Of a stretch of DNA of 54,779 nucleotides, positions 22,201-43,000 are shown piece by piece. This DNA is from a virus. The DNA is taken from IMG/VR virus record IMGVR_UViG_3300024517_000021, positions 1 to 54,779 of that record. One strand, 5' to 3'. The first letter of the stretch is position 1. Each line of letters opens with the position of its first letter. The position numbers and the translations under genes were made by a program. Under the pieces are notes generated by a model, which saw nothing but the letters and a program-made list of their open reading frames with translations, ran no database searches and was not told the origin of the DNA.

Positions 22201-23818
22201 CGAGGGAACGAACCCTGTGATAGAGGCGTTCGGTGCTCCTGCCAGATGGCTACGGGAGGCAGTGACTCGGAGCCCGGAGTTCATGGCTGCAAACATGCTT
22301 CGGGATTCGCTGTCTACTTGGGTGATTAGTGGTGGAAAAGCAGGTCCGTGGGATACGTTGTCTACGTTTGGAAAAGATCTGAAGAATTGGAAGATCGGGG
22401 AAACCTCCGAGACTCTTAAGATTCTTGAGAAGACAGGTGCAATTGGAGGGTATGATCTCCAGGGTACTTCTCCCAAGGCGTTGAAAAGATATTTCCTGAA
22501 GGCTTCTGGTGCTAAGTCTGGTGGTCCGATGGGACTAGGCTCAAAGCTATGGGGAGATCTTGGTGATATCTCTGGTTTGTCGGAAGCGGCTGCACGGCAG
22601 CGTGTCTACGAGCATGTCTACGAGATCACGATGGACAAGCTTGCTGCTGAAAACATTCGAGGCGAAAAGGCTGAGCGCATTGCGATGCGAGAGGCTGGAT
22701 TCCAGGCTCAGGAAGTGCTCAACTTTTCTAGGAAAGGAAGCTCTCCCTGGCTGAAAGTAATCACTGCCACCGTACCGTTTTTGAATGCTCGCTTGCAGGG
22801 CCTCGACCGCTTGGGCAGGTCGGCCTTTGGTCAAGATTCGATGGTTGGGATGAGCAAGGAAGAGGCGATTCGATCCTTCATTTTGCGTGGCAGCTTGATC
22901 GCAGGGATGACGATTGCCTATACGCTGATGAACTGGGAGGATGAGGAGTACCAGAATACTCGTCAGGAAATTAGAGATGATAACTGGTTGATTCCTACGG
23001 GTACTGGCAATTTCATTTCTATCCCGATTCCGTTTGAAGTGGGAGTCTTGTTCAAGGTGATTCCAGAAATGTTGACTGCTGCGGCACTGGGTCGAGCGCC
23101 GAGGGAGTTGGTTGATTCTGCACGACATGCCTTGGTCAATACCCTGAACTTCAATCCACTCCCGCAAGCGGTGAAGCCAATCATTGAGGGTTGGACAAAC
23201 TACAACTTCTTCACAGGTCGAGAGATCGTGCCCTTCTATATGGAGGATATGATTTCGGAGAAGCAGTACCGTCCGACAACAACAGCCCCAGCCAAGATGC
23301 TGGGTGCTGCATTCAATGTCAGCCCGATGAAGGTGGAGAACTTCATTCGAGGTCAGTTCGGAACGATTGGTTCCTATGCGATGTCTGCCACGGATGCAGT
23401 CTTACATAACCCGGCGTTCGGCTATACGAGTAGGCCAGACAGAAGGCTGACAGACTTCCCCTTCTTTAGACGATTCATGAAGGATGAGTTCGGTACTGGG
23501 AACAAGTCTCTCTACTACGATATGCGTGGGGAAGTAGATGGGATTGTTGCCACGATCAATGCCTTGTCTAAGACTGAGCCGATGGAGGCAATGAAGATTC
23601 GTAGGGAGTATGGAGGTCTGCTGCGGATGCGAGATGTGGTGAACTCGATGGACAAACAGATGCGTAGTCTCAGGAACCGTCGCATTCAGATCTATGTGAA
23701 TCCGTCTATGGATCCTGGGATGAAGAGGAAGTTGATTGACAACTTGGATAGAACTGAAAACCGTTTACTCAAGAATGTTCCGGCGATGCGGAAGATGGCT
23801 GACCTGGGGATCTTGTGA
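13277..23818 (+). CDS. Giant polyvalent internal/ejection protein, 3513 residues, with lytic transglycosylase
   Basis: Starts at TTG directly after the preceding TAA. Modules in order (residues approximate): 5-115 soluble lytic transglycosylase, catalytic Glu31 in QQESNW plus GLMQLMPGTA and YNAGPGNV; 155-200 DNTWVDAPADMPEEEAL motif; 299-347 glycine-rich hydrophobic stretch; 1065-1069 HESIH, a zincin HExxH; 1285-1400 a possible ADP-ribosyltransferase-like region; about 1610 IPVGYNPHKSVFFYD polyvalent-protein motif; about 1899 GPKLGSFFNNLYGDYS domain; 2172-2340 GNAT-like domain (DAFDTVLPRLYSNMGMRVVA); 2400-2590 possible BECR-fold nuclease (GFGERHIERHNPD); 2610-3513 LPD38-like helical region (VPFLNARLQGLDRLGR at 3166). 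Four linkers VGRAAxxRG begin near 959, 1676, 2118 and 2383, and PRAAEG occurs at 1277 and 1409. It is probably injected with the DNA, locally cleaving peptidoglycan and delivering effectors. Only the transglycosylase is certain. The GTGA overlap couples it to the endolysin. Confidence 0.8.
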   Translation: MSRDLYRDLVYRIAEEEGVYGPLAEAVIQQESNWDPAATSHAGAQGLMQLMPGTASDLGVEDPLDPEQNIRGGVRYLRQNLEKYDNDIDLALAAYNAGPGNVDKYGGIPPFKETQDYVSRIRGERLPMFMSEYGDFEETSEEEVSAGVDPAGLEDQVVEEEVETRTVFLPDNTWVDAPADMPEEEALQLAREKYPESFNVVGVEIPRGESNSWDAAAAAASRSTFGLIPGLQAAFASATGNEDLYDHAQGRLREESEAAYDIAPNLVTTEEIGKVYDEEGLIPAAAKAMEFGTEQIFQSFGFQAPSIAAGLGVAGAAQLGVLAGLTGPVGVATAGMLAGLGTMFSTFLSENLERSYEEGKIDTKDVNLLRQAVSAGGQTALNSLTYLLVGGKVGTKMLLSPAAREEGFSALGKTLNRLEDLSPVKRMLSVVAEEEVAEIGQQALERYAAGLPVDPRHKGAAEEYAEIALATLAPSLGFAALGGVSSSLSRRAAERKDLDKETDVKKAMMERVTEARLKLEENRRSDALHNLRESAQYQAERDLFLSEAGDLAGITAEDIHALAKERNINSEDVAFHEFSRKATAGIEDKTGKKGGQAYLDGMSPKQLQKMYADIKAMPVQEQPTSLQVVSEKDARSFAGALAKGRKKQKVTKKQVEAKLRALGKIDEGQMEENFLGDLADQYIFRLAEFGLGTKLDDGSIQLKKTDRTLVSESDYQKIMDASRADAGGRFITMGRAKELTGVRGFNRYRAIRDEAIRRGDIVKTGKRYMVAPAKEFTKSFSYRIDEGPQHVVRNDRGEVESTHANQRAADKEKNKLARKIGYIARDEGGNAIGGAGTKQEARQHLSRYFARLRQEAKNAVLNNGVGKLPPIDQASDWIKPTVERRAEEAGEAAVRRAKDNVVGVKPIRRVYTVAKEDGFLIREEKTGADGRVSRSARKDFLAGEEEARARLSELEGRRVGRAAVDRGEEAELVRSLREDPATPLDEELPLPAPEQVSEHAALEEELNKVLASRGLSEFRTEIVEGLTVDARVDPLTLTIQIAMTPGLQSKKIEDQVKALMPLLNHESIHAFRKMGLITKAEWKQLKKWVKTTPVPSEIVNAFNEKQTAAGLETLPDGATYYDMSRVLYADQGNADNWIDDSYVEEAVAFLGQDLTNIAPDPEVKGIFRKIASVLKRVGRALMGRGYRTPKEAFDKLYGPQMVQRAKAGRSLDTWWTDRRLGNDQIRPEYEFAELAGWAESRGRVLGGEQTTEEKVLEALDSVESPDVDVSPGRAAVPRAAEGARVGNWGELPRGADNWEQLPDGRLVGYRVSRSVGGRAVSGADSRQSASMEPGAQVEFEGDGVFVTNDLEYAKTYYGVHDENALQRVAFSRDDVTSGRLADSEPEVSVRSGEVIGSDVFTDPDLDPTPRAAEGFPRHTDRSYRNAVNRDEAARANAEFDEDTRTWSDGQWESVGDFPNTRHIELTNHLSPTIEELKTQGLGMHTDHQRSLVGKNRDIPEGTPVRLRIDVRLWKDWLRKIGEGKYAQTVHDIYNKKGEYVNIESATQVGTALGYDNIARLDGDVEFKVNWNQANKIRYADGKKTPIAVVEGAISQDRTDPRDIPDFDSWIPVGYNPHKSVFFYDKRTGQEVVGGRDAISTGNTVFVREANYGDRSVQSATEEGDRQFAQDRPSRRVGRAAVDRGEAVTHALRIIEGIDSASIDSKTSSPTVFEIAKYFYDSVDDRVDHRSATDSQNKALEDLIFDEALFAVKKNPSALEWYDENLNLTMSVLEEIDPDLKNPDNRFVLSALLAVTSNGNTVDEQFKQSWDTYRHWVDNDGELVGDYAAGDKKKFIQNHIAIISSLVENLGYAGAAEWLSSKSPVSEIRKSASDWGYPNAKKIATTEFVDEVVPHSVIFGPKLGSFFNNLYGDYSTLTMDRWFMRMLGRVAGSQLDINIPKLKQAEARGRKSLGDLSSQDRKMLGLNKKSFTGPNIVSSVGRVNKYFSLAKNREGIAKGTPLDNFRKAVNNLSKKYEPLIESPVSPGHRRWIRARFNNVIKRLRDEGLSIEPADLQALLWYNEKALFNALNYREKKGSDDYAGSAEALHQRVVGRPSRVYATGAGRVAGVGGGPSAERVGRAAANRGETPEAVLRDFRSRTDGRSLVAQEALSRPYRRGTRGTSSALRGLGAPDSVQVVRYKFDSPRFKESFDSAGVPTTDILEISGPGSSQFFRERIQKSKDENRFGSSVYVYDEPEYSGMRLFLSDDGHSGIALKGDDIVSGFSTPEAPRGSVYPLMMKAIDEGGRRADAFDTVLPRLYSNMGMRVVARVPWDDQYAPPGWDYDLYSRFNSGRPDVTYLVYDPDYLGYYEGTEGSVVSSPDDAVSLQDSALEEIDSRPIERVGRAAMSRGIPRGAENPVLRPGTDGQVTLANARWGQIPFNKEGKFDKRGVAYDIFVKEGYDESVEGKSRGFGERHIERHNPDIRDNTPFRDWKELLSEFTKALSKGKKLRSGDIYPAPDGAGRMSFLWDRDDFKEPVVVIMEYVDREGGESLPPKAHHYSVVTAFASDDYGGNVPDGNRRNNTPLHGSRVSTEAIKAYRRPSVARKWNEKQRGRFALSRTDGVPYTPAQRAAQADLNGGIPETDNSLWGQVSSAFPVIDTAFWSEMRRRFLEKFNRLKEIGEMRGARGDTVGSLASSSAWALAMMVDRAGAFLSASFKYGVMTFRDGIPMVEDLELTDTAENVLIYNTRTGEYERVTKSVPNMYEGVGGLLSILEALAVPGRNLVPKFFAYSRALRGYNLMQAGKLVPFENPEESIKQGLAFADEHPEIAIAHANLQKWNEGMVEFLVQTGVMTRDMADVWLQHSDYVPFYLNLDGETNDAMRQIFTEQLGEGADFQILDSLVSGIPSKRYKGFKGQLMEPVEALSKNAFALIQAGLKNVASAKAIDEAMDIAEPMARETTKDKSDLTVRREGKEYYYAVSDPVLLNTLIGAFEGTNPVIEAFGAPARWLREAVTRSPEFMAANMLRDSLSTWVISGGKAGPWDTLSTFGKDLKNWKIGETSETLKILEKTGAIGGYDLQGTSPKALKRYFLKASGAKSGGPMGLGSKLWGDLGDISGLSEAAARQRVYEHVYEITMDKLAAENIRGEKAERIAMREAGFQAQEVLNFSRKGSSPWLKVITATVPFLNARLQGLDRLGRSAFGQDSMVGMSKEEAIRSFILRGSLIAGMTIAYTLMNWEDEEYQNTRQEIRDDNWLIPTGTGNFISIPIPFEVGVLFKVIPEMLTAAALGRAPRELVDSARHALVNTLNFNPLPQAVKPIIEGWTNYNFFTGREIVPFYMEDMISEKQYRPTTTAPAKMLGAAFNVSPMKVENFIRGQFGTIGSYAMSATDAVLHNPAFGYTSRPDRRLTDFPFFRRFMKDEFGTGNKSLYYDMRGEVDGIVATINALSKTEPMEAMKIRREYGGLLRMRDVVNSMDKQMRSLRNRRIQIYVNPSMDPGMKRKLIDNLDRTENRLLKNVPAMRKMADLGIL
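19509..19784 (+). CDS. Candidate overprinted gene inside the giant gene
   Basis: A 91-codon frame, +1 relative to the giant gene, with AAGAAGGGG five bases before ATG 19509. Its product (WLADHRESMQQAQDEWQESE, ending SWLKRRFPGLTDEELEEHL) is acidic, Trp-containing and helix-forming, as real small phage proteins are. Over the same bases the giant protein is unusually Arg/Gly/Ala-rich (GAGRVAGVGGG, RPYRRGTRGTSS), as expected when a second frame constrains the first. It could instead be the remnant of an inserted gene now read through out of frame, or chance. It stops at TAG 19782-19784, just before the GNAT-like module. Confidence 0.35.
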   Translation: MTMRDRQKPSTNEWLADHRESMQQAQDEWQESEEGQALSEWAERLPTGVKLPKPSSGTSEAEPMDVRSWLKRRFPGLTDEELEEHLALYGG

Positions 23819-24276
23819 GACTCTCTCCCCACTTTGTTCTTAGAGAGTTGACGAAATCCCAGACGGCAACTCGAATGGGAATCGACAATAGTCCAAACGA
23901 TACGGAGATAGAATCTCTTCGTGTTGTATGTGAAAATATTTTAGAGCCAGTCAGGGCTAACTTTAAGGTTCCATTTAGTCCGTCTTCTGGATTTAGATGC
24001 AAAGAGTTGAACGAAGCAATTGGTGGTTCCCCTACGAGCCAGCATTCTTTGGGTCAAGCTGCGGACTTTGAGATCTTTGGTGTCTCTAATCTAGAGATTG
24101 CATTGTGGATTAAATACAATCTAGATTTTGACCAGTTGATACTAGAGTATTATTACAATGACGATCCTTCTTCTGGTTGGGTTCATGCGTCCATCCTGAC
24201 TCACGGCAACAGGAAGGAGTGTTTTACTTTTGATGGGAAGATTTACTGGGGTGGTATTGAAGGGAAAGGTTCTTAA
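23815..24276 (+). CDS. M15-family peptidoglycan peptidase (endolysin)
   Basis: 153 residues from GTG 23815, overlapping the giant gene's stop by four bases. The zinc site of the M15 (M15_3-like) family is visible: SQHSLGQAADFEI gives His77 and Asp84, and WVHAS gives His124. SGFRCKELNEAIGGS precedes it, as in the family. It would cut peptide cross-links of peptidoglycan for lysis. Length is typical of a single-domain phage M15 enzyme without a separate wall-binding domain. It is followed by small membrane proteins, forming a lysis cassette. Confidence 0.8.
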   Translation: MRLSPHFVLRELTKSQTATRMGIDNSPNDTEIESLRVVCENILEPVRANFKVPFSPSSGFRCKELNEAIGGSPTSQHSLGQAADFEIFGVSNLEIALWIKYNLDFDQLILEYYYNDDPSSGWVHASILTHGNRKECFTFDGKIYWGGIEGKGS

Positions 24277-33055: not shown

Positions 33056-33403
33056 CTAAAACTTGCCCTCACGTCTCGAAAGAATCTGATTGATGAATTC
33101 GATTATCTGGACTTGAAGCACGGTCTTAGTCTCCTTCCATTCCTTCGAGTAAATCTTCGAGTAAATTCCGTGCGGACACCAACGATGAATCATCTTGTCG
33201 AGATCAGCGAGTTCCGTTTCGTCCATCTGCCCGTCCCTCTTCACCGATTCTCGCGCCAGCCGATAGGCTTCGCTCGCATTCGTATCACCCTCTCGGTTAA
33301 CGAAGAGTCCGTAAAGCTTATCCGCCTTCTCCACCACCTCTCGCAGCGCGGCGTTCTCCTCACGGTATGCCTGGATGCTTGTGTCCTTGACTTGCGGTCT
33401 CAT
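33056..33403 (-). CDS. Coiled-coil accessory protein, unknown
   Basis: 115 residues from ATG 33403, in the junction cassette TAGATG (TAG ends the upstream gene). The N-terminal coiled coil (YREENAALREVVEKADKLYG) is followed by a helical acidic region (MDETELADLDKMIHRW) and KEWKETKTVLQVQIIEFINQ. Coiled-coil proteins of this kind commonly sit in phage early gene arrays. No enzymatic motif. Confidence 0.55.
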   Translation of the reverse strand: MRPQVKDTSIQAYREENAALREVVEKADKLYGLFVNREGDTNASEAYRLARESVKRDGQMDETELADLDKMIHRWCPHGIYSKIYSKEWKETKTVLQVQIIEFINQILSRREGKF

Positions 33404-33649
33404 CTACTTGTCCTCCTCAAGCATTCTGACAGATTCTTCCTTCGCTCTAATCAACTCGATCCCTTTGTGGATGGAGTCGATTAGAGTGAAGGCAGCCACC
33501 TTGTCTTGGATGTGAATGGAGTGGTGATGGTCGTAGTCCTTGGGATCGATCCTGAGAGTGATGCTCTGCTTCTCGCTATCGCCCGGATAAATATCTCGGA
33601 CCTCGATATCTGTTGCTCTTCCTACATGGAAATTTACAGTCGTAATCAT
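33404..33649 (-). CDS. Small accessory protein ending EEDK, unknown
   Basis: 81 residues from ATG 33649 behind AGGAGGACGAC. Beta-rich N-terminus (TTVNFHVGRATDIEVRDIYP, QSITLRIDPKDYDHHHSIHI) and a C-terminal helix (SIHKGIELIRAKEESVRMLE). Its final residues EDK and TAG are encoded by the ribosome-site cassette that starts the next gene. No known family. Confidence 0.55.
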   Translation of the reverse strand: MITTVNFHVGRATDIEVRDIYPGDSEKQSITLRIDPKDYDHHHSIHIQDKVAAFTLIDSIHKGIELIRAKEESVRMLEEDK

Positions 33650-33900
33650 GTCGTCCTCCTGTTAGGCCAGTATTGCACACTGGCATTGAAAAGCAACAGC
33701 AACACCTCGTTACTGTTATCGTGGTGGGCGATGGGCCAATAACCCTTCTTGGCCCACGGCCCATTCTCATTCAGCGGGGAAAAACCCAGTGAATTCAATG
33801 AGTAGGGAGAAGCCCCTCAAAAATGGGAGCAACTACCCGCAATATTTTTTCAGTCAAATAGCCAAGATTCTTACAACGATTGACTACAAAATATTTTTCC
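33650..33900. promoter_or_regulatory. Intergenic control region with inverted repeat and AT-rich elements
   Basis: No convincing gene. GCCAGT (33666-33671) and ACTGGC (33679-33684) form an operator-like inverted repeat. On the minus strand it overlaps a possible -10 (CAATACT) preceded by TTGCTT at about 16 bases, a weak sigma70-like promoter for the leftward genes. Two copies of the AT-rich element lie at 33840-33857 (minus orientation, TTGACTGAAAAAATATT) and 33881-33905. Also GGGCCAA/TTGGCCC-type symmetry at 33734-33763. Confidence 0.45.
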
Positions 33901-34296
33901 CTAGTCTTCGATCAGCCGACGGTCGAACTCCTCTTCTAGTTCTTCCTGCGTGCAGTCGCCTTGCCTCTCTCCAACCTGCTTCTCTCTGAGGTTTTGCACG
34001 AATCGGTCGGCGTCTATCTCGTCCCGGGACCATCGCTTCTCTCTCCAGACAGAGAGTCGGTCCTGCTTCTCTCTTCGGAATGCTTCCGCATCGTGAGGTC
34101 GAGTCTTGGCTGACCCGCAGGTTCGGCATCGGCTCAACTCCACCGTTTCTTGAATCACAGTCACAACCACAAGCCAGCCATCATCTCTCTCTCCCTCAAC
34201 CCTGTACTCTCCAATCGTGTCATCCCTTCCCGTGCCTCGGGTGTTCCTATCCCACCTAGGTCTGGTGCTTGTAAATGAGAAGTCCCGATACTTCAT
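33901..34296 (-). CDS. Charged accessory protein with single CxxC, unknown
   Basis: 131 residues from ATG 34296, overlapping the upstream stop by four bases (ATGA). The N-terminus is Arg-rich (SFTSTRPRWDRNTRGTGRDD) with a strand (GWLVVVTVIQETVELSRC). CRTCG at about residue 57 forms half a zinc knuckle. The C-terminal half is highly charged and helical (EAFRREKQDRLSVWREKRWS). Function unknown. Confidence 0.5.
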   Translation of the reverse strand: MKYRDFSFTSTRPRWDRNTRGTGRDDTIGEYRVEGERDDGWLVVVTVIQETVELSRCRTCGSAKTRPHDAEAFRREKQDRLSVWREKRWSRDEIDADRFVQNLREKQVGERQGDCTQEELEEEFDRRLIED

Positions 34297-34862
34297 GTCT
34301 CCCCCCTTCTCTTCTTTGAGGTTTGAATTTTCTCATTGAGTTCTCTCGTGAAGTATATCAGTGCAGCGTCAACACTTCTGCTTGAACGTGAGTCGAAGAG
34401 TGCGTGAGGAATTGTTACATCGGACCATGCGCCGCAATTCCTCGCAAACTGAATCGCTCGTGGATTTGACACAGGGATCAGTCCAATCAGAACATCCCAC
34501 ACAAATTCCCCTTCATCGTTAGTCGTGTTGATGATTTTGTCCAGGGCATATTGCATGATGGGGACTGACCCCCTCCCCCAGAACTTACTGAAGCAAGTCC
34601 AATGCATCTGGACACTCTTCCCCTGGAAGTTATTCAGCCAGCAAGCGATGGCTGGTTCATTGTCTGCCATCACAAGGTAGAGGATGTTGTGGCCAGAAGT
34701 GACTGAGAAGAGGAACTCCTCCCTGGAGTTGACGGTTCCATCCTGAAAGATCGACGCAGCGACTCCGTCTGACACCATCCGGTCGTAGAGATCCATGACA
34801 TGCGAGTCCTTGAGAGTGGGAACACCGTCAATTTTTGTATAGGGAATCAGGTTGACTCTCAA
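34293..34862 (-). CDS. GNAT-family acetyltransferase-like protein
   Basis: 189 residues from TTG 34862. The pattern LVMADNEPAIACWLNNFQGK, then VQMHWTCFSKFWGRGSVP, then LIGLIPVSNPRAIQFARNCG is typical of a phage GNAT family in which the last helix follows NPRAxxFAxxxG. It is one of several GNAT-like proteins in this window (9569, 10019, and a domain of the giant protein). Substrate unknown; these may modify host proteins or small molecules. Confidence 0.6.
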   Translation of the reverse strand: MRVNLIPYTKIDGVPTLKDSHVMDLYDRMVSDGVAASIFQDGTVNSREEFLFSVTSGHNILYLVMADNEPAIACWLNNFQGKSVQMHWTCFSKFWGRGSVPIMQYALDKIINTTNDEGEFVWDVLIGLIPVSNPRAIQFARNCGAWSDVTIPHALFDSRSSRSVDAALIYFTRELNEKIQTSKKRRGET

Positions 34863-34875
34863 TCTACTTGTCCTC

Positions 34876-35094
34876 CTAAGTGCATTCGTATCTGTCTTTT
34901 CGATATTGATTTATCTCATGCTTCTTATCATTCCAAGTCCGACAGACTGCGCACCAGAGGTCAAGATGAACGAGATCTTCTCTAGCCCAGTCAGCAGCGC
35001 ATCGTTGTCGGCAAAAGGGTGGCGTGTGATTCAACTTCAAAATCCTCTTGCATTTGATGCATCTCGGATTGGATAACTCCACGCACTTCCCCAT
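34876..35094 (-). CDS. Zinc-binding protein with six cysteines
   Basis: 72 residues from ATG 35094 in a junction cassette. CIKCKRILK, then FCRQRCAADW, then WCAVCRTW give Cys12/15/28/32/48/51, consistent with a treble-clef or double zinc-knuckle fold. The pattern resembles HNH-related zinc proteins, but no catalytic HH is seen. Its stop lies in the TTAGGAGGACAAG cassette that starts the next gene. Confidence 0.55.
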   Translation of the reverse strand: MGKCVELSNPRCIKCKRILKLNHTPPFCRQRCAADWAREDLVHLDLWCAVCRTWNDKKHEINQYRKDRYECT

Positions 35095-35421
35095 CTACTT
35101 GTCCTCCTGTGTGATGTTTGTGATGGTGCCCAGGTTGGCGGCTCCCCGCATCAAAAAACCCCAGGGACCGTGAGCGCTTAGAAGAATGTCAATCCTTCCA
35201 CCCTTCGGTCCTTTTAGTTCGACTGTGAACGTGCCAACCTCTACAACGGTCAAGGAATAAGGCTTTTCCCAGTCGCTGAGGCGGTCTGTTTTGATGGTGA
35301 CATGCTCGCCGGGTTCAAGGTCAGGGAGTCCATCTTTAAAATAAGTGCGTCCGTCTCCGCTCACTCGCAACCCCCACCTGAGAAGTTTCCCCCACCTGAT
35401 GAGGTCATTCGGTTTGACCAT
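35095..35421 (-). CDS. Beta-barrel-like accessory protein, unknown
   Basis: 108 residues from ATG 35421. The adjacent cassette ATG at 35426 opens only a 21-codon frame, so the start has shifted five bases. The product is beta-rich (HVTIKTDRLSDWEKPYSLTV, VEVGTFTVELKGPKGGRIDI), typical of a small SH3/OB-like barrel. It ends TQEDK, from the cassette. No known family. Confidence 0.5.
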   Translation of the reverse strand: MVKPNDLIRWGKLLRWGLRVSGDGRTYFKDGLPDLEPGEHVTIKTDRLSDWEKPYSLTVVEVGTFTVELKGPKGGRIDILLSAHGPWGFLMRGAANLGTITNITQEDK

Positions 35422-35430
35422 GTCATCTAC

Positions 35431-35631
35431 TTATCCTCCTAGGATATCTTTGTAGCGGCCCAGCATTCCCCATATCTTCGCCACGGTTTCATCGTCCATC
35501 TCGTGATACACATCAGTGAGTCCCTCACTTTTAACAATGATAGAGAACTCGTGACCATTGAACCCGTTGTCTAGCATGTCCTCCACTCTGTTCTCCAATG
35601 CCCGCTGCGCTTCGTTTAGCTTCACGCTCAT
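35431..35631 (-). CDS. Small helical acidic protein, unknown
   Basis: 66 residues from ATG 35631. Helical and acidic throughout (LNEAQRALENRVEDMLDNGF, YHEMDDETVAKIWGMLGRYK). It stops at TAA inside a cassette variant (AGGAGGATAAG). Size and charge are typical of phage anti-host or regulatory miniproteins, but no family is recognised. Confidence 0.5.
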   Translation of the reverse strand: MSVKLNEAQRALENRVEDMLDNGFNGHEFSIIVKSEGLTDVYHEMDDETVAKIWGMLGRYKDILGG

Positions 35632-35922
35632 CTACTTGTTTCCAGCCTTCGTCCGTTGCATCCCAAACTTCGCCCCCTGATTGTCCATCATCAATTTTAT
35701 GCACAGCTCCTTTTCCACTTCGGCGTAGTGGACATACTCAAAAAAGTATTCAACTCGTACATACTCATCCCGGCACCACTTCACGCGATAGAGATAGAAC
35801 AGGAGTCCACGAATCCAGTTGGGGCCGAAGTCCTTGCCTGCAATTCCGTCCTGATCCTCCACGTTCCAGCCGGGGCCGATGCGAAGTAGGTAAAGAACTC
35901 GGTAAAGAATATTTTTAATCAT
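35632..35922 (-). CDS. Basic aromatic-rich accessory protein, unknown
   Basis: 96 residues from ATG 35922 in an exact junction cassette. The N-terminus (IKNILYRVLYLLRIG) is amphipathic and could associate with membranes; the middle is aromatic (WIRGLLFYLYRVKWCRDEYV) and the C-terminus basic. No family recognised. It directly follows the PEP-CTERM gene and overlaps its end by four bases. Confidence 0.5.
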   Translation of the reverse strand: MIKNILYRVLYLLRIGPGWNVEDQDGIAGKDFGPNWIRGLLFYLYRVKWCRDEYVRVEYFFEYVHYAEVEKELCIKLMMDNQGAKFGMQRTKAGNK

Positions 35923-36263
35923 CTACTTGTCCTCCTTGATTTGGAATAAATGAATGCAAGAAACACAATCGATACAGTCAACATGATGGCAATCGAAGGT
36001 TCCGGCACGTTAACTGGAGATCCCCAATGGGATATCTCTCCTCCTTCTCCGATAGATCTAGCTCTCACCAGTGCAACAGCGCCGGGTAGTTCTAGTTCTA
36101 CTTCAAAGCAGTCGTTGCAGCTTTGGACTGTATTGGTCTGGCCTGCTGGCTCCCAAATTTTAGGACGATGCGCTGGTCCTCCGGGTAGATACTCAAATTC
36201 CCAACCCGTAATGTTTTCGTTGTCAGGCTGATACCAGTGGATAGTGTGTCTATGATCTGTCAC
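35919..36263 (-). CDS. PEP-CTERM tail protein lacking a signal peptide
   Basis: 114 residues from GTG 36263. Residues 5-85 look like one Ig/fibronectin-type beta domain (WEFEYLPGG, CFEVELELPGAVALVRARS). The C-terminus is VPEPS (86-90), a hydrophobic span (IAIMLTVSIVFLAFIY) and a basic tail (SKSRRTSR). That is the three-part PEP-CTERM signal recognised by bacterial exosortases. The N-terminus (TDHRHTIHWYQPDNENITGW) has no signal peptide, unlike bacterial PEP-CTERM proteins, and no longer start exists because the upstream stop is immediate. The end of the basic tail is encoded by the junction cassette in an alternative frame. Likely acquired from a host surface protein. Confidence 0.65.
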   Translation of the reverse strand: MTDHRHTIHWYQPDNENITGWEFEYLPGGPAHRPKIWEPAGQTNTVQSCNDCFEVELELPGAVALVRARSIGEGGEISHWGSPVNVPEPSIAIMLTVSIVFLAFIYSKSRRTSR

Positions 36264-36267
36264 TTAT

Positions 36268-36528
36268 CTACTTTTCCTCCTCTTCTCGACGCTTGGCAAT
36301 GCACCAAGCGCATACCGTATCGGCCTCGAACTCTACGCAGTTGACGCGACACTCCTCGCACAGTCGGTTCCTTGTACTTCCAACTCTCATCAGCTTGGAG
36401 TCCTTGTCTAGTGCTTCTTGCACTCTTTCCACGTCTCCGGGTCTTCCAATCTTCCTCGCAATGGAATCGTGGCTGAGACCTTTTCTGGCTAGCTTGATGA
36501 TTCTTTCATGGGTGTGATGCTTGCTCAT
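36268..36528 (-). CDS. HTH plus zinc-knuckle regulator-like protein
   Basis: 86 residues from ATG 36528. The N-terminal half has a homeodomain-like helix-turn-helix (ERIIKLARKGLSHDSIARKI). The C-terminal half has CEECRVNC and CAWC (Cys57/60/64/73/76), probably binding zinc, and an acidic EEEEK end from the cassette. It may be a DNA-binding regulator. Known families not recognised. Confidence 0.55.
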   Translation of the reverse strand: MSKHHTHERIIKLARKGLSHDSIARKIGRPGDVERVQEALDKDSKLMRVGSTRNRLCEECRVNCVEFEADTVCAWCIAKRREEEEK

Positions 36529-36852
36529 CTACTTGTCCTCCTTGAGTGCCAAGGCGTCTTTCGTGAGGTCAGTGAGCAGGAGGGATTTGGCCCTCTGGAT
36601 TTCCCGCCTGGGAACATAGTTAGACTTCGTGTCCGGGATTGGCGTCGATAGCGTGACGATGTCATTAAGCACCTGTGCCATTTCTACGTAGCTTTCGCGC
36701 AGATATTTGACATCTTCGACTACTCCACGCTTCGGTCCAGTCACTTCGCCAACGGCAGCAGCGTGCATCTTCGCAATGAGGTGGCAAGCGTCCTTATGCT
36801 CACCCTTGAGCCACGCCACTTCCGTCTTCAGATATTCAATTTCCTTGTCCAT
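36529..36852 (-). CDS. Coiled-coil accessory protein ending KEDK
   Basis: 107 residues from ATG 36852, first gene of the cassette array. The N-terminal coiled coil (KEIEYLKTEVAWLKGEHKDA) is followed by helical segments (YLRESYVEMAQVLNDIVTLS, REIQRAKSLLLTDLTKDALA). Its start lies in an exact cassette that has no gene ending in it. Unknown function. Confidence 0.55.
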   Translation of the reverse strand: MDKEIEYLKTEVAWLKGEHKDACHLIAKMHAAAVGEVTGPKRGVVEDVKYLRESYVEMAQVLNDIVTLSTPIPDTKSNYVPRREIQRAKSLLLTDLTKDALALKEDK

Positions 36853-36876
36853 CTACTTGTCCTCCTGTGTGTGAGA

Positions 36877-36909: not shown

Positions 36910-38220
36910 TCAGATATCGATCTGCACTGCATCCCCAAAGGGAGGCTTGTTCTTCGTCCACCTTCCACCCGTCTCGAAAACTTCCTCCGAAGATGCCCAG
37001 AGGATCGGGTGTCGAGTCGGCTCACCGTAGCTTCGGCATTCGAGGTCGGTGAAGATGATCACCGCATCGGGCCTTGCGTTGGTGTGTCGGAGCCAGTGGA
37101 AGATGGGCTCGTAGTTCGTTCCGCCACCGCACTCCATATCAGTGGGCAACTTTTCCTTCGGTCCCAACTCGATGATCATCTCCTGCTGGATGACATGATT
37201 GAAGGGGACGATGGTGATCTTCTGGATCGTAGTAGCCCCCCGGATCTTCTCCAGATGAGAGAAGAATGCCTGATGCTCAGCCCTTCCAACTGATGAGGAA
37301 ATATCCTCGAAGATCATCAGATGCTGGAGTCCCTCCCGGATCTCGCCCGGCAGGTACTGTCGGTAGGACAGTGCGCGCCGATCCAGTCGAGACCAAGTCC
37401 TCCCGATGGGCTTGCCCACCTTGTGGATCCACTTGGCGAGGTAAGCTGACCAGTCCATCTTGGGTCGGGTGATCCGATCAAGCGCCCGCCTTTCATCGGG
37501 GCTGCCCATCTTCCCTACATCCTTCGCAGCCATCTCTCCCTGAGAAATTGTGTCAGCTAGATCTCGGAGACCTTCCTGCTTCTGGCCTTCGGTGAGTTCC
37601 TTCCCGTCTTCGTCGGTGGCATCCCAAACTTCGCCGGGTGCTTTCTTCGGTGAGGGAGGAGCTGACTCTGGGGGGGCAGGTGCGCCGGGCTTTCCCCCAT
37701 CGATCTCATCTCCCGGCTCATCCCCCGGCCCATCCCCGGACTCCGGGAATGAGCCATTGCCGGGCTCATCACCGGGCTCATCTGGAGAATCGGGGGGCGG
37801 CGGCGGCGGGTCACTTACGATGCGACCGAAGACCTTCTCTTCTGACCAACCCCGGTACTTTTCATCGCAGTACCAGTCACCGGGGATGGGGAAGCCCGCA
37901 TCCTTGAGAAGGAGGTTGATCACATAATCACAGGCAATATTCCAGAGATAGTGGTCACGGTTGCCACGCCGGAACTGATGCCCCAGCGCAACGTGCGCCA
38001 CCTCGTGGAGGATGAGCGTGTGTCGCGTGTACTTGGGGAGGCTCAGGCAATACTCAGGGTTGGCGAAGATCCTGCGACCATCTGTTGCGGCAGTCTCGAC
38101 CGGCCTCCCCCCGTGGCTGGTGCAGACCAGCAGCTCCAGCTTCATGGCGACCAGTGCCCAGAAGGGCTGTTCGTCCAGTGCTTTGATTCGGATTGATTCG
38201 AGTTCAGTTTGGAAGTCCAT
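36910..38220 (-). CDS. Putative metallopeptidase with VWA-like domain (DUF2201-type)
   Basis: 436 residues behind CACAGGAGACACA. The N-terminal domain has LHEVAHVALGH (His72, Glu73, His76, His81), a zinc-peptidase site. A long Pro/Gly/Asp linker (about 146-200) follows. The C-terminal VWA domain has an intact MIDAS: FEDISSSVG (DxSxS, about 305), GGGTNYEP and IIFTDLE. This pair of domains is the DUF2201 putative-metallopeptidase architecture, which typically works with a MoxR AAA+ ATPase; that ATPase is the next gene upstream. Substrate unknown. Possibly proteolytic quality control, virion maturation or anti-host action. Confidence 0.8.
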   Translation of the reverse strand: MDFQTELESIRIKALDEQPFWALVAMKLELLVCTSHGGRPVETAATDGRRIFANPEYCLSLPKYTRHTLILHEVAHVALGHQFRRGNRDHYLWNIACDYVINLLLKDAGFPIPGDWYCDEKYRGWSEEKVFGRIVSDPPPPPPDSPDEPGDEPGNGSFPESGDGPGDEPGDEIDGGKPGAPAPPESAPPSPKKAPGEVWDATDEDGKELTEGQKQEGLRDLADTISQGEMAAKDVGKMGSPDERRALDRITRPKMDWSAYLAKWIHKVGKPIGRTWSRLDRRALSYRQYLPGEIREGLQHLMIFEDISSSVGRAEHQAFFSHLEKIRGATTIQKITIVPFNHVIQQEMIIELGPKEKLPTDMECGGGTNYEPIFHWLRHTNARPDAVIIFTDLECRSYGEPTRHPILWASSEEVFETGGRWTKNKPPFGDAVQIDI

Positions 38221-38244
38221 TGTGTCTCCTGTGTTGAGAAGGAA

Positions 38245-38264
38245 GGGGGGGCACTCGCCCCCCC
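38245..38264 (-). terminator. G/C-tract hairpin between the MoxR and VWA genes
   Basis: GGGGGGG (38245-38251) pairs with CCCCCCC (38258-38264), loop CACTCG. On the minus strand it is followed by TTCCTTCTC, the same pyrimidine tail as two plus-strand terminators (52379, 52944). It probably partly terminates or stabilises the ATPase transcript ahead of the VWA gene. Confidence 0.5.
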
Positions 38265-38271
38265 CTCTGCA

Positions 38272-39375
38272 TCATCCGATGACTAGATCCTCATTATCCT
38301 TGAGGAACTGGGCGTACTCTGCTGACGCATTGGCGAAGTCCTTGTGAGAGTTCGCTGCCTGCTTGAATCCGAAGACTGCGAACGCCCCGTCCAGTCTGCG
38401 GAGGTACGTGATGACTGCATCCACCCGTTGAGTAGTGAGTGTCTCACCCTTCCTAGCCTGAAGGTCCGCGCAGATGTTGCTGATCACTGCGTAGTTCGCC
38501 GAGAGTGCCCCATCTCCAGAGGGGATATGAGCCGTTTCGGGTGACTCATAAATGTCCTCGACGCTGGCCAGCTCCCCTCCGAGTCGGACATATCCAGAGA
38601 ACTCGATGTATGCAGCTCTCCCGACCAGCCCCTCGCCGTGTCGCCTCATCGTGCCATCGGACAGACCCTGCCAGAGTAGGCCGGACAATTTGTGCCAGCT
38701 TCGGAGGCTCGGCCTAGCAAGTTCCTTCGAGTTGTAATCAGAGCAGTGGATGAAGTTCCTCTGCCCTTCGGGCTCCGACTTCACCCATCGCAGGAATCCA
38801 GTAATGAGGGGGTGGATCTTCCCGTCTGCCCATTCCAGCCAGCGAGGAAAGATCTCGGTGATGATATCCTCATGAGTGATCTCGATGATGCTGAATCGAT
38901 CCAGCAGTGACCAAGTGATCGGGTTGCTCCCGCAGTTGGCTTCGGGCGGGTTCGTTGCGGCGACGAACCAGACATGATCGGGGATCTTGTGACCTTCCAG
39001 CTCACGATCTTGGATCAGGCTCTGGATGGCAGTCTGCTGATCGTCGAGACTGTTGCCGATCTCATCGAAGAAGACGCAGACCCCGTCATAATTCTCTGCG
39101 CCGGGAACGTCCCCAAGCAGCGTCCGTTTAATCATCGTTACCAGTTCCCCCTTCTCAAAGTCGGGGACGTTGATTCCTCCAACATCGATGGAAGGCGTGC
39201 GGCCAAGGATGATCGTGATCAGCAGGTTATTGATCGGCTCGCAGAAGCCGCGAACCTGGGCAGTCTTGGAGATGCCCCGGTCCCCGATGAAGAGACAAGG
39301 CGTCCCCTCCCCGTAGATCCCGTTCGTCTGGGTCTTCCGAGAGGAGGCGAGCAGTTCGTTAAAATCGAGTGACAT
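38272..39375 (-). CDS. MoxR-type AAA+ ATPase
   Basis: 367 residues behind CAGGAGAACAT. Walker A is GDRGISKT (31-38), Walker B VFFDEIG (Asp104, Glu105), sensor 1 ATNPPE (Asn142) and an arginine finger region SLLDRF (Arg160). A helical lid and C-terminal domain follow (FIHCSDYNSKELARPSLRSW). MoxR ATPases act as chaperones that remodel targets, often together with VWA proteins that bind Mg via MIDAS. The adjacent VWA-metallopeptidase is the obvious partner. Confidence 0.85.
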   Translation of the reverse strand: MSLDFNELLASSRKTQTNGIYGEGTPCLFIGDRGISKTAQVRGFCEPINNLLITIILGRTPSIDVGGINVPDFEKGELVTMIKRTLLGDVPGAENYDGVCVFFDEIGNSLDDQQTAIQSLIQDRELEGHKIPDHVWFVAATNPPEANCGSNPITWSLLDRFSIIEITHEDIITEIFPRWLEWADGKIHPLITGFLRWVKSEPEGQRNFIHCSDYNSKELARPSLRSWHKLSGLLWQGLSDGTMRRHGEGLVGRAAYIEFSGYVRLGGELASVEDIYESPETAHIPSGDGALSANYAVISNICADLQARKGETLTTQRVDAVITYLRRLDGAFAVFGFKQAANSHKDFANASAEYAQFLKDNEDLVIG

Positions 39376-42755: not shown

Positions 42756-42925
42756 CATTTGTCATGTCGGGCCTCAGCCCATGGCGGCTAGCACTGGTCA
42801 ACCTGGGCTAACACCAGCAATGTACGTGCAGGGCTAACGCAACAAGTGTGATGCTACCCCCCGGGGATGCACCACCCCCCACCCCCCCTTACGCGCAGGC
42901 CCGGGGTCGTCACCCTTACACACTA

Positions 42926-43000
42926 TTTCACACGTACAATTCTGATTTCACACGTACGATTCTGGATTTCACACATACAATTCTGATTTCACACATACAC
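42926..43000. repeat. Iterons, about 20-base tandem repeat x3.7
   Basis: TTTCACACGTACAATTCTGA at 42926-42945, then TTTCACACGTACGATTCTGGA (42946-42966), TTTCACACATACAATTCTGA (42967-42986) and a partial TTTCACACATACAC (42987-43000). Period 20-21 bases, about two helical turns, so a protein would bind all copies on one face. No intervening spacers, so this is not CRISPR. Confidence 0.85.

Follow-up and report, generated by a model that had tools for sequence, protein, structure and literature searches.

The gene studied here raises the question of whether a phage protein that ends like a bacterial PEP-CTERM protein, but begins without an export signal, takes part in exosortase sorting at the host surface. 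It lies on the minus strand of the window, which is the whole 54.8-kb viral contig that was analysed. The terminase of this phage shares 52-58% identity with its counterparts in Pelagibacter phages HTVC023P and HTVC027P, phage 023Pt_psg01 and phage DSL-LC04, and the contig also encodes an SU10-like portal and a polyvalent protein (3513 aa; SLT and LPD38 domains). Below, we describe the gene and its relatives and weigh what its C-terminus could do. Our preferred reading, to which we give a probability of about 0.55, is that the gene belongs to a new family of phage proteins in which an FN3 domain is tail-anchored in the membrane, and that their PEP-CTERM-like C-terminus is convergent and does not work through the exosortase pathway.

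An in-frame TAA stands immediately 5' of the GTG start, so that a longer start is impossible and a hidden signal peptide is excluded in the window protein. Averaged over 15 residues, Kyte-Doolittle hydropathy within residues 1-45 peaks at -0.31, and a signal peptide is absent. The lack of an N-terminal export signal, as claimed in the original prediction, is thus borne out. The coordinates of the gene and associated features are collected in Table 1.

Table 1. Features of the PEP-CTERM-like gene and its surroundings in the window.
Feature	Position	Strand	Basis or remark
Gene for 114-aa FN3-like / PEP-CTERM-like tail-anchored protein	35919..36263	-	GTG start; TGA stop overlaps ATG of next gene
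Predicted FN3/Ig-like beta-sandwich, residues 4-84	36012..36254	-	AlphaFold2, Foldseek, profile vs PDB
CNDC, cysteines C49 and C52 (CxxC)	36108..36119	-	Invariant in 18/18 members
VPEPS motif, residues 86-90	35994..36008	-	TIGR02595 match; alignment of 18 members
Hydrophobic transmembrane helix, residues ~91-109	35937..35993	-	Predicted helix 91-113; KD mean 2.42
Basic tail RRTSR	35922..35936	-	Junction cassette in AGG AGG ACA AGT AGA frame
Upstream junction-cassette copy GGAGGAAAAGTAGATAA	36264..36280	-	Carries Shine-Dalgarno of the PEP-like gene and in-frame TAA
Endolysin (phrog_894)	23815-24276		

The protein is a member of a small, conserved family of phage membrane proteins that is previously undescribed and unnamed. 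Uncultured phage contigs yielded 17 further distinct homologues, giving 18 members with the window copy; the two found first, at 39% identity (E 7e-19), are on contigs of the closest terminase relatives. Pfam, NCBIfam and PHROGs hold no model of the family, and the window protein has no PHROGs match at E 0.1. A tblastn search of 50,697 phage records with two members returned no match, a pattern-limited scan of GTDB genomes confirmed no homologue, and a profile search of terminase relatives that do not carry the gene found no distant members. Purifying selection on the gene is evident from the dN/dS values of closely related homologue pairs, which are 0.12-0.41. An alignment of 16 sequences has twelve invariant positions, which remain so in all 18 members: the initiator methionine, W10, W21-E22-F23, W37, C49, C52, R67, R69, W80 and E88. 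None of the 18 has a signal peptide. The upstream frame is closed within 39 codons in 16 of them, and the other two (L169 and L170) have a longer upstream frame, yet no hydrophobic leader in the extra stretch. A missed upstream start with a signal peptide, named in the original prediction as a finding that would tell against it, is ruled out by the in-frame stop and the homologue frames, and a spurious open reading frame by the homologues and the dN/dS values.

The Ig-like domain that had been proposed is supported by structure prediction. AlphaFold2 models the window protein as a beta-sandwich followed by a helix at residues 91-113 (pLDDT 86), and a divergent homologue takes the same fold (pLDDT 84). 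The top matches across searches are to FN3 and Ig domains such as those of gp130, IL-12R and titin, each weak singly. The best Foldseek ones have high probability but E >= 0.014, and a sequence profile run against the PDB gives a weak match to the gp130 FN3 domain. An FN3/Ig fold is thus a well-supported prediction, and the subfamily is less certain. Like the FN3 and Ig-like domains of phage structural proteins, the domain is a predicted beta-sandwich, and in structure searches it weakly matches tail and Ig-like phage proteins; unlike them, it is a lone domain on a membrane anchor, outside any tail or head protein.

The window protein ends in VPEPSIAIMLTVSIVFLAFIYSKSRRTSR, and all three elements named in the original prediction (VPEPS, a hydrophobic span and a basic tail) are present. 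Their match to the PEP-CTERM model TIGR02595 sits at its cut-off: residues 86-110 score 15.9 bits (cut-off 16; E 0.018 against 18,950 models), and a six-frame search of the window raises this, its sole match, above the cut-off (17.7 bits, E 6e-4). Against PF07589, the protein scores 14.3 bits with a cut-off of 20.7. In the genome searches made, the window copy alone among the members reaches the TIGR02595 cut-off; homologues in six-frame searches score 13.2-14.0 bits, under it, and one homologue does better on PF07589 (E 0.0017). No second PEP-CTERM gene was found in the carriers by profile search. As a comparison, in 221 of the 6040 distinct open reading frames fetched, a C-terminal hydrophobic span is followed by two or more basic residues. 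A PEP lies just upstream of the span in 12 of these, and all 12 are members of the FN3/PEP-like family, mutually related and hence not independent events. To judge from the cut-off score of the window copy and from the absence of PEP in every unrelated tail of the 221, the motif is not a common property of C-terminal anchors.

Conservation of this C-terminus is uneven across the family. The glutamate E88 is invariant (18/18), P89 and the EP pair are each found in 17 members and P87 in 14, and strict PEP is kept in 13. The remaining five read LGEPD, LSEPD, LSEPG, LTEPS and LPEID, so the loss of VPEP among homologues that would count against the original prediction is partly seen. Strict PEP requires at least four changes on a weakly resolved tree built from FN3 columns only, with the motif columns left out. 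The helix and tail sequences vary while the glutamate stays invariant, and the layout common to the members is an FN3/Ig-like domain with CxxC, a membrane-proximal EP, one transmembrane helix and usually a basic tail. The stretch after the helix is about 18 residues in L077 and L156, longer in L157 and L161, and at most 15 residues otherwise. Motifs of the window copy, L157, L161 and L167 were taken from the alignment, as these have an earlier EI or EP upstream, and this choice shifts domain charges only slightly; the N-terminal domain is very acidic (about -5 to -14) and the tail is basic.

The basic tail of the window copy derives in part from a gene-junction cassette. Eight near-identical 17-base gene-junction cassettes (GGAGGACAAGTAGATGA), which combine Shine-Dalgarno, stop and start, occur at positions 33400-36865 on the minus strand, where 0.17 would be expected by chance. 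Genes of the cluster end in the cassette in differing frames, giving EDK-stop, GG-stop or RRTSR-stop. The last of these, AGG AGG ACA AGT AGA TGA, is one reading frame of AGGAGGACAAGTAGATGA, which supplies all but one of the four basic residues in the tail, confirming the earlier suggestion that the tail is partly cassette-encoded. In viral contigs, the cassette pattern gives 74 mostly scattered matches; two copies occur on L011 and on L053 only, and neither contig has the family gene.

Twelve of the 17 other carriers have the gene beside the terminase genes, either in the TerS-TerL gap, divergent from or co-directional with TerL, or in the TerL-portal gap. The window copy is one of a cluster of small minus-strand genes; the terminase genes are ~6-7 kb away from it and the endolysin ~12 kb. 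Many terminase relatives, most of them fragmentary records, lack the family gene, which looks accessory. In the window, the TerS-TerL gap, the place of the family gene in other phages, holds four ~20-base near-tandem repeats (ATTTCACACGTACAATTCTG) at 42925-42998.

Several neighbouring genes recur among the carriers. A conserved ~145-aa gene lies directly upstream of the family gene in six contigs (L151, L153, L159, L163, L165 and L168) and ends just before, or overlaps, its start. Of three members tested, two give a weak match to phrog_610 (unknown function) and the third matches nothing; the gene looks GNAT-like, despite having no Pfam match, and has no isolate-phage match. A second small conserved gene begins within the 3' end of the family gene in L151, L153, L159 and L165, and its L159 copy matches phrog_8676 (unknown function). 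A DUF2201 metallopeptidase/VWA-like gene at window 36910-39375 on the minus strand stands beside an AAA ATPase gene, as in other carriers, and by our reading the two form a MoxR/VWA-style pair.

Two kinds of bacterial protein offer the closest parallels. Like PEP-CTERM proteins (TIGR02595/PF07589), the phage protein ends in a PEP, a hydrophobic helix and a basic tail after an unrelated domain (PMC1569441). Unlike them, it has no signal peptide, whereas 97% of bacterial members carry one after start-site correction, and strict PEP is kept in 13 of 18 phage members, including the window copy, whereas Pro-Glu-Pro is near-invariant in the founding description (PMC1569441). The phage family also departs from PEP-CTERM systems in being phage-encoded, with no exosortase or EPS locus seen in the phages. 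Bacteria also have an established class of proteins that lack a signal peptide and end in a transmembrane helix and a di-arginine tail; in ElaB and YqjD of E. coli, which exemplify it, a positive patch with di-arginine at its end comes after the helix (PMC5525287; PMC6389858). The phage protein resembles ElaB and YqjD in lacking a signal peptide and in having one C-terminal transmembrane helix and a short basic tail; it differs in its FN3-like soluble domain with CxxC and in the conserved EP or PEP before the helix. The resemblance is one of layout, and the phage protein has no matching Pfam family. The combination of no signal peptide with a single C-terminal helix, which is predicted and in a few members is followed by a longer tail, is that of C-tail-anchored proteins. 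Because ElaB and YqjD share the same C-terminal layout, a C-tail-anchored membrane protein is the simplest reading.

Under this tail-anchored reading, the acidic FN3-like domain with its invariant CxxC would be synthesised without a signal peptide, and we infer that the single C-terminal helix anchors the protein in the host inner membrane post-translationally, as in bacterial tail-anchored proteins. The short segment with E-P, in many members P-E-P, would mark the membrane boundary, and the basic residues would fix the end of the helix. The resemblance to PEP-CTERM is then most likely convergence on a layout of linker, helix and basic tail, with the glutamate presumably retained for a job in the phage protein itself, such as the domain-to-membrane junction or a partner contact. 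Held at the inner membrane in this way, the protein may serve as a binding domain at the envelope of the infected host; it could take part in superinfection exclusion, for instance, or tether a factor of phage or host origin.

Charge distribution complicates this picture and leads to the alternative advanced in the original prediction, that the protein is an exosortase mimic or decoy. With an acidic N-terminal domain and a basic tail, the positive-inside rule favours an N-out/C-in orientation over N-in tail anchoring, and this would place the PEP where an exosortase could see it. The N-terminal domain would be translocated without a signal peptide as a reverse signal-anchor, and the periplasmic PEP would engage a host exosortase, with surface display (exclusion) or blocked processing of host PEP-CTERM proteins as possible outcomes. 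We regard such a decoy as possible but unlikely. In its favour are the tripartite tail at the TIGR02595 cut-off, the invariance of the glutamate and near-invariance of EP beside variable helix and tail sequences, and the confinement of PEP, among comparable tails, to this family; against it are the lack of a signal peptide in any member, the degraded PEP in five of them and the sub-threshold scores of every member but the window copy. A host exosortase is also without support. No match to exosortase EpsH (PF09721) was found in 22 window or relative records or in four isolate phages, and literature titles and abstracts gave no phage-encoded PEP-CTERM protein; one paper examined in detail concerns host genes in Microcystis colonies. 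GTDB searches named no host: the terminase search returned one contig only, in a Poseidonia MAG, which is too weak to name one. That 7.1-kb contig (L191), binned in an archaeal MAG, carries at 1163-2650 a terminase 70% identical to that of the window and is probably mis-binned. What stands of the original prediction is a phage-encoded, signal-less, C-terminally anchored Ig/FN3 protein with PEP, transmembrane span and basic tail, now with 17 other members. Its exosortase part, including occupation of a host exosortase and a superinfection block, is not supported, given the loss of PEP in 5 of 18 members, a single copy at the cut-off and no exosortase found in the phages; as a reading of the window protein, it is unproven and somewhat weakened. 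It is quite unlikely, in our judgement, that the family imitates an exosortase sorting signal outside the signal-peptide route and that the phage thereby hijacks or jams host surface-protein sorting during infection.

Two further explanations draw on where the gene lies and how its tail is encoded. T7-like phages keep lysis genes around their terminase genes, and that gene order, together with the terminase-side position in most other carriers, speaks for a lysis or late-assembly part: a single-span holin-, antiholin- or spanin-like protein, or a packaging membrane adaptor, expressed with the terminase and portal genes. The window copy, however, is remote from both terminase and endolysin among small minus-strand genes, and the gene is missing from many terminase relatives, and we consider this role improbable. 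An accessory function at the envelope would account for its mobility and patchiness more readily than an essential part in lysis or packaging. Chance, in the form of a spurious open reading frame or of a meaningless PEP-like tail with basic residues read in frame from a Shine-Dalgarno cassette, would fit the cassette-derived residues of the window copy, but most homologues have basic tails of their own, the dN/dS range indicates selection, and the fold and motif are conserved across 18 members. The homologues thus largely refute chance, which we hold to be highly improbable.

The outcome is an unannotated and clearly selected family of phage membrane proteins that current profile libraries have missed. 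If the tail does engage an exosortase, this would be, as far as the literature searched shows, the first described viral interference with exosortase sorting, and it would help to predict the hosts of uncultured phages. If it does not, the family indicates that a PEP-CTERM match alone, without a signal peptide, is no warrant for exosortase biology.
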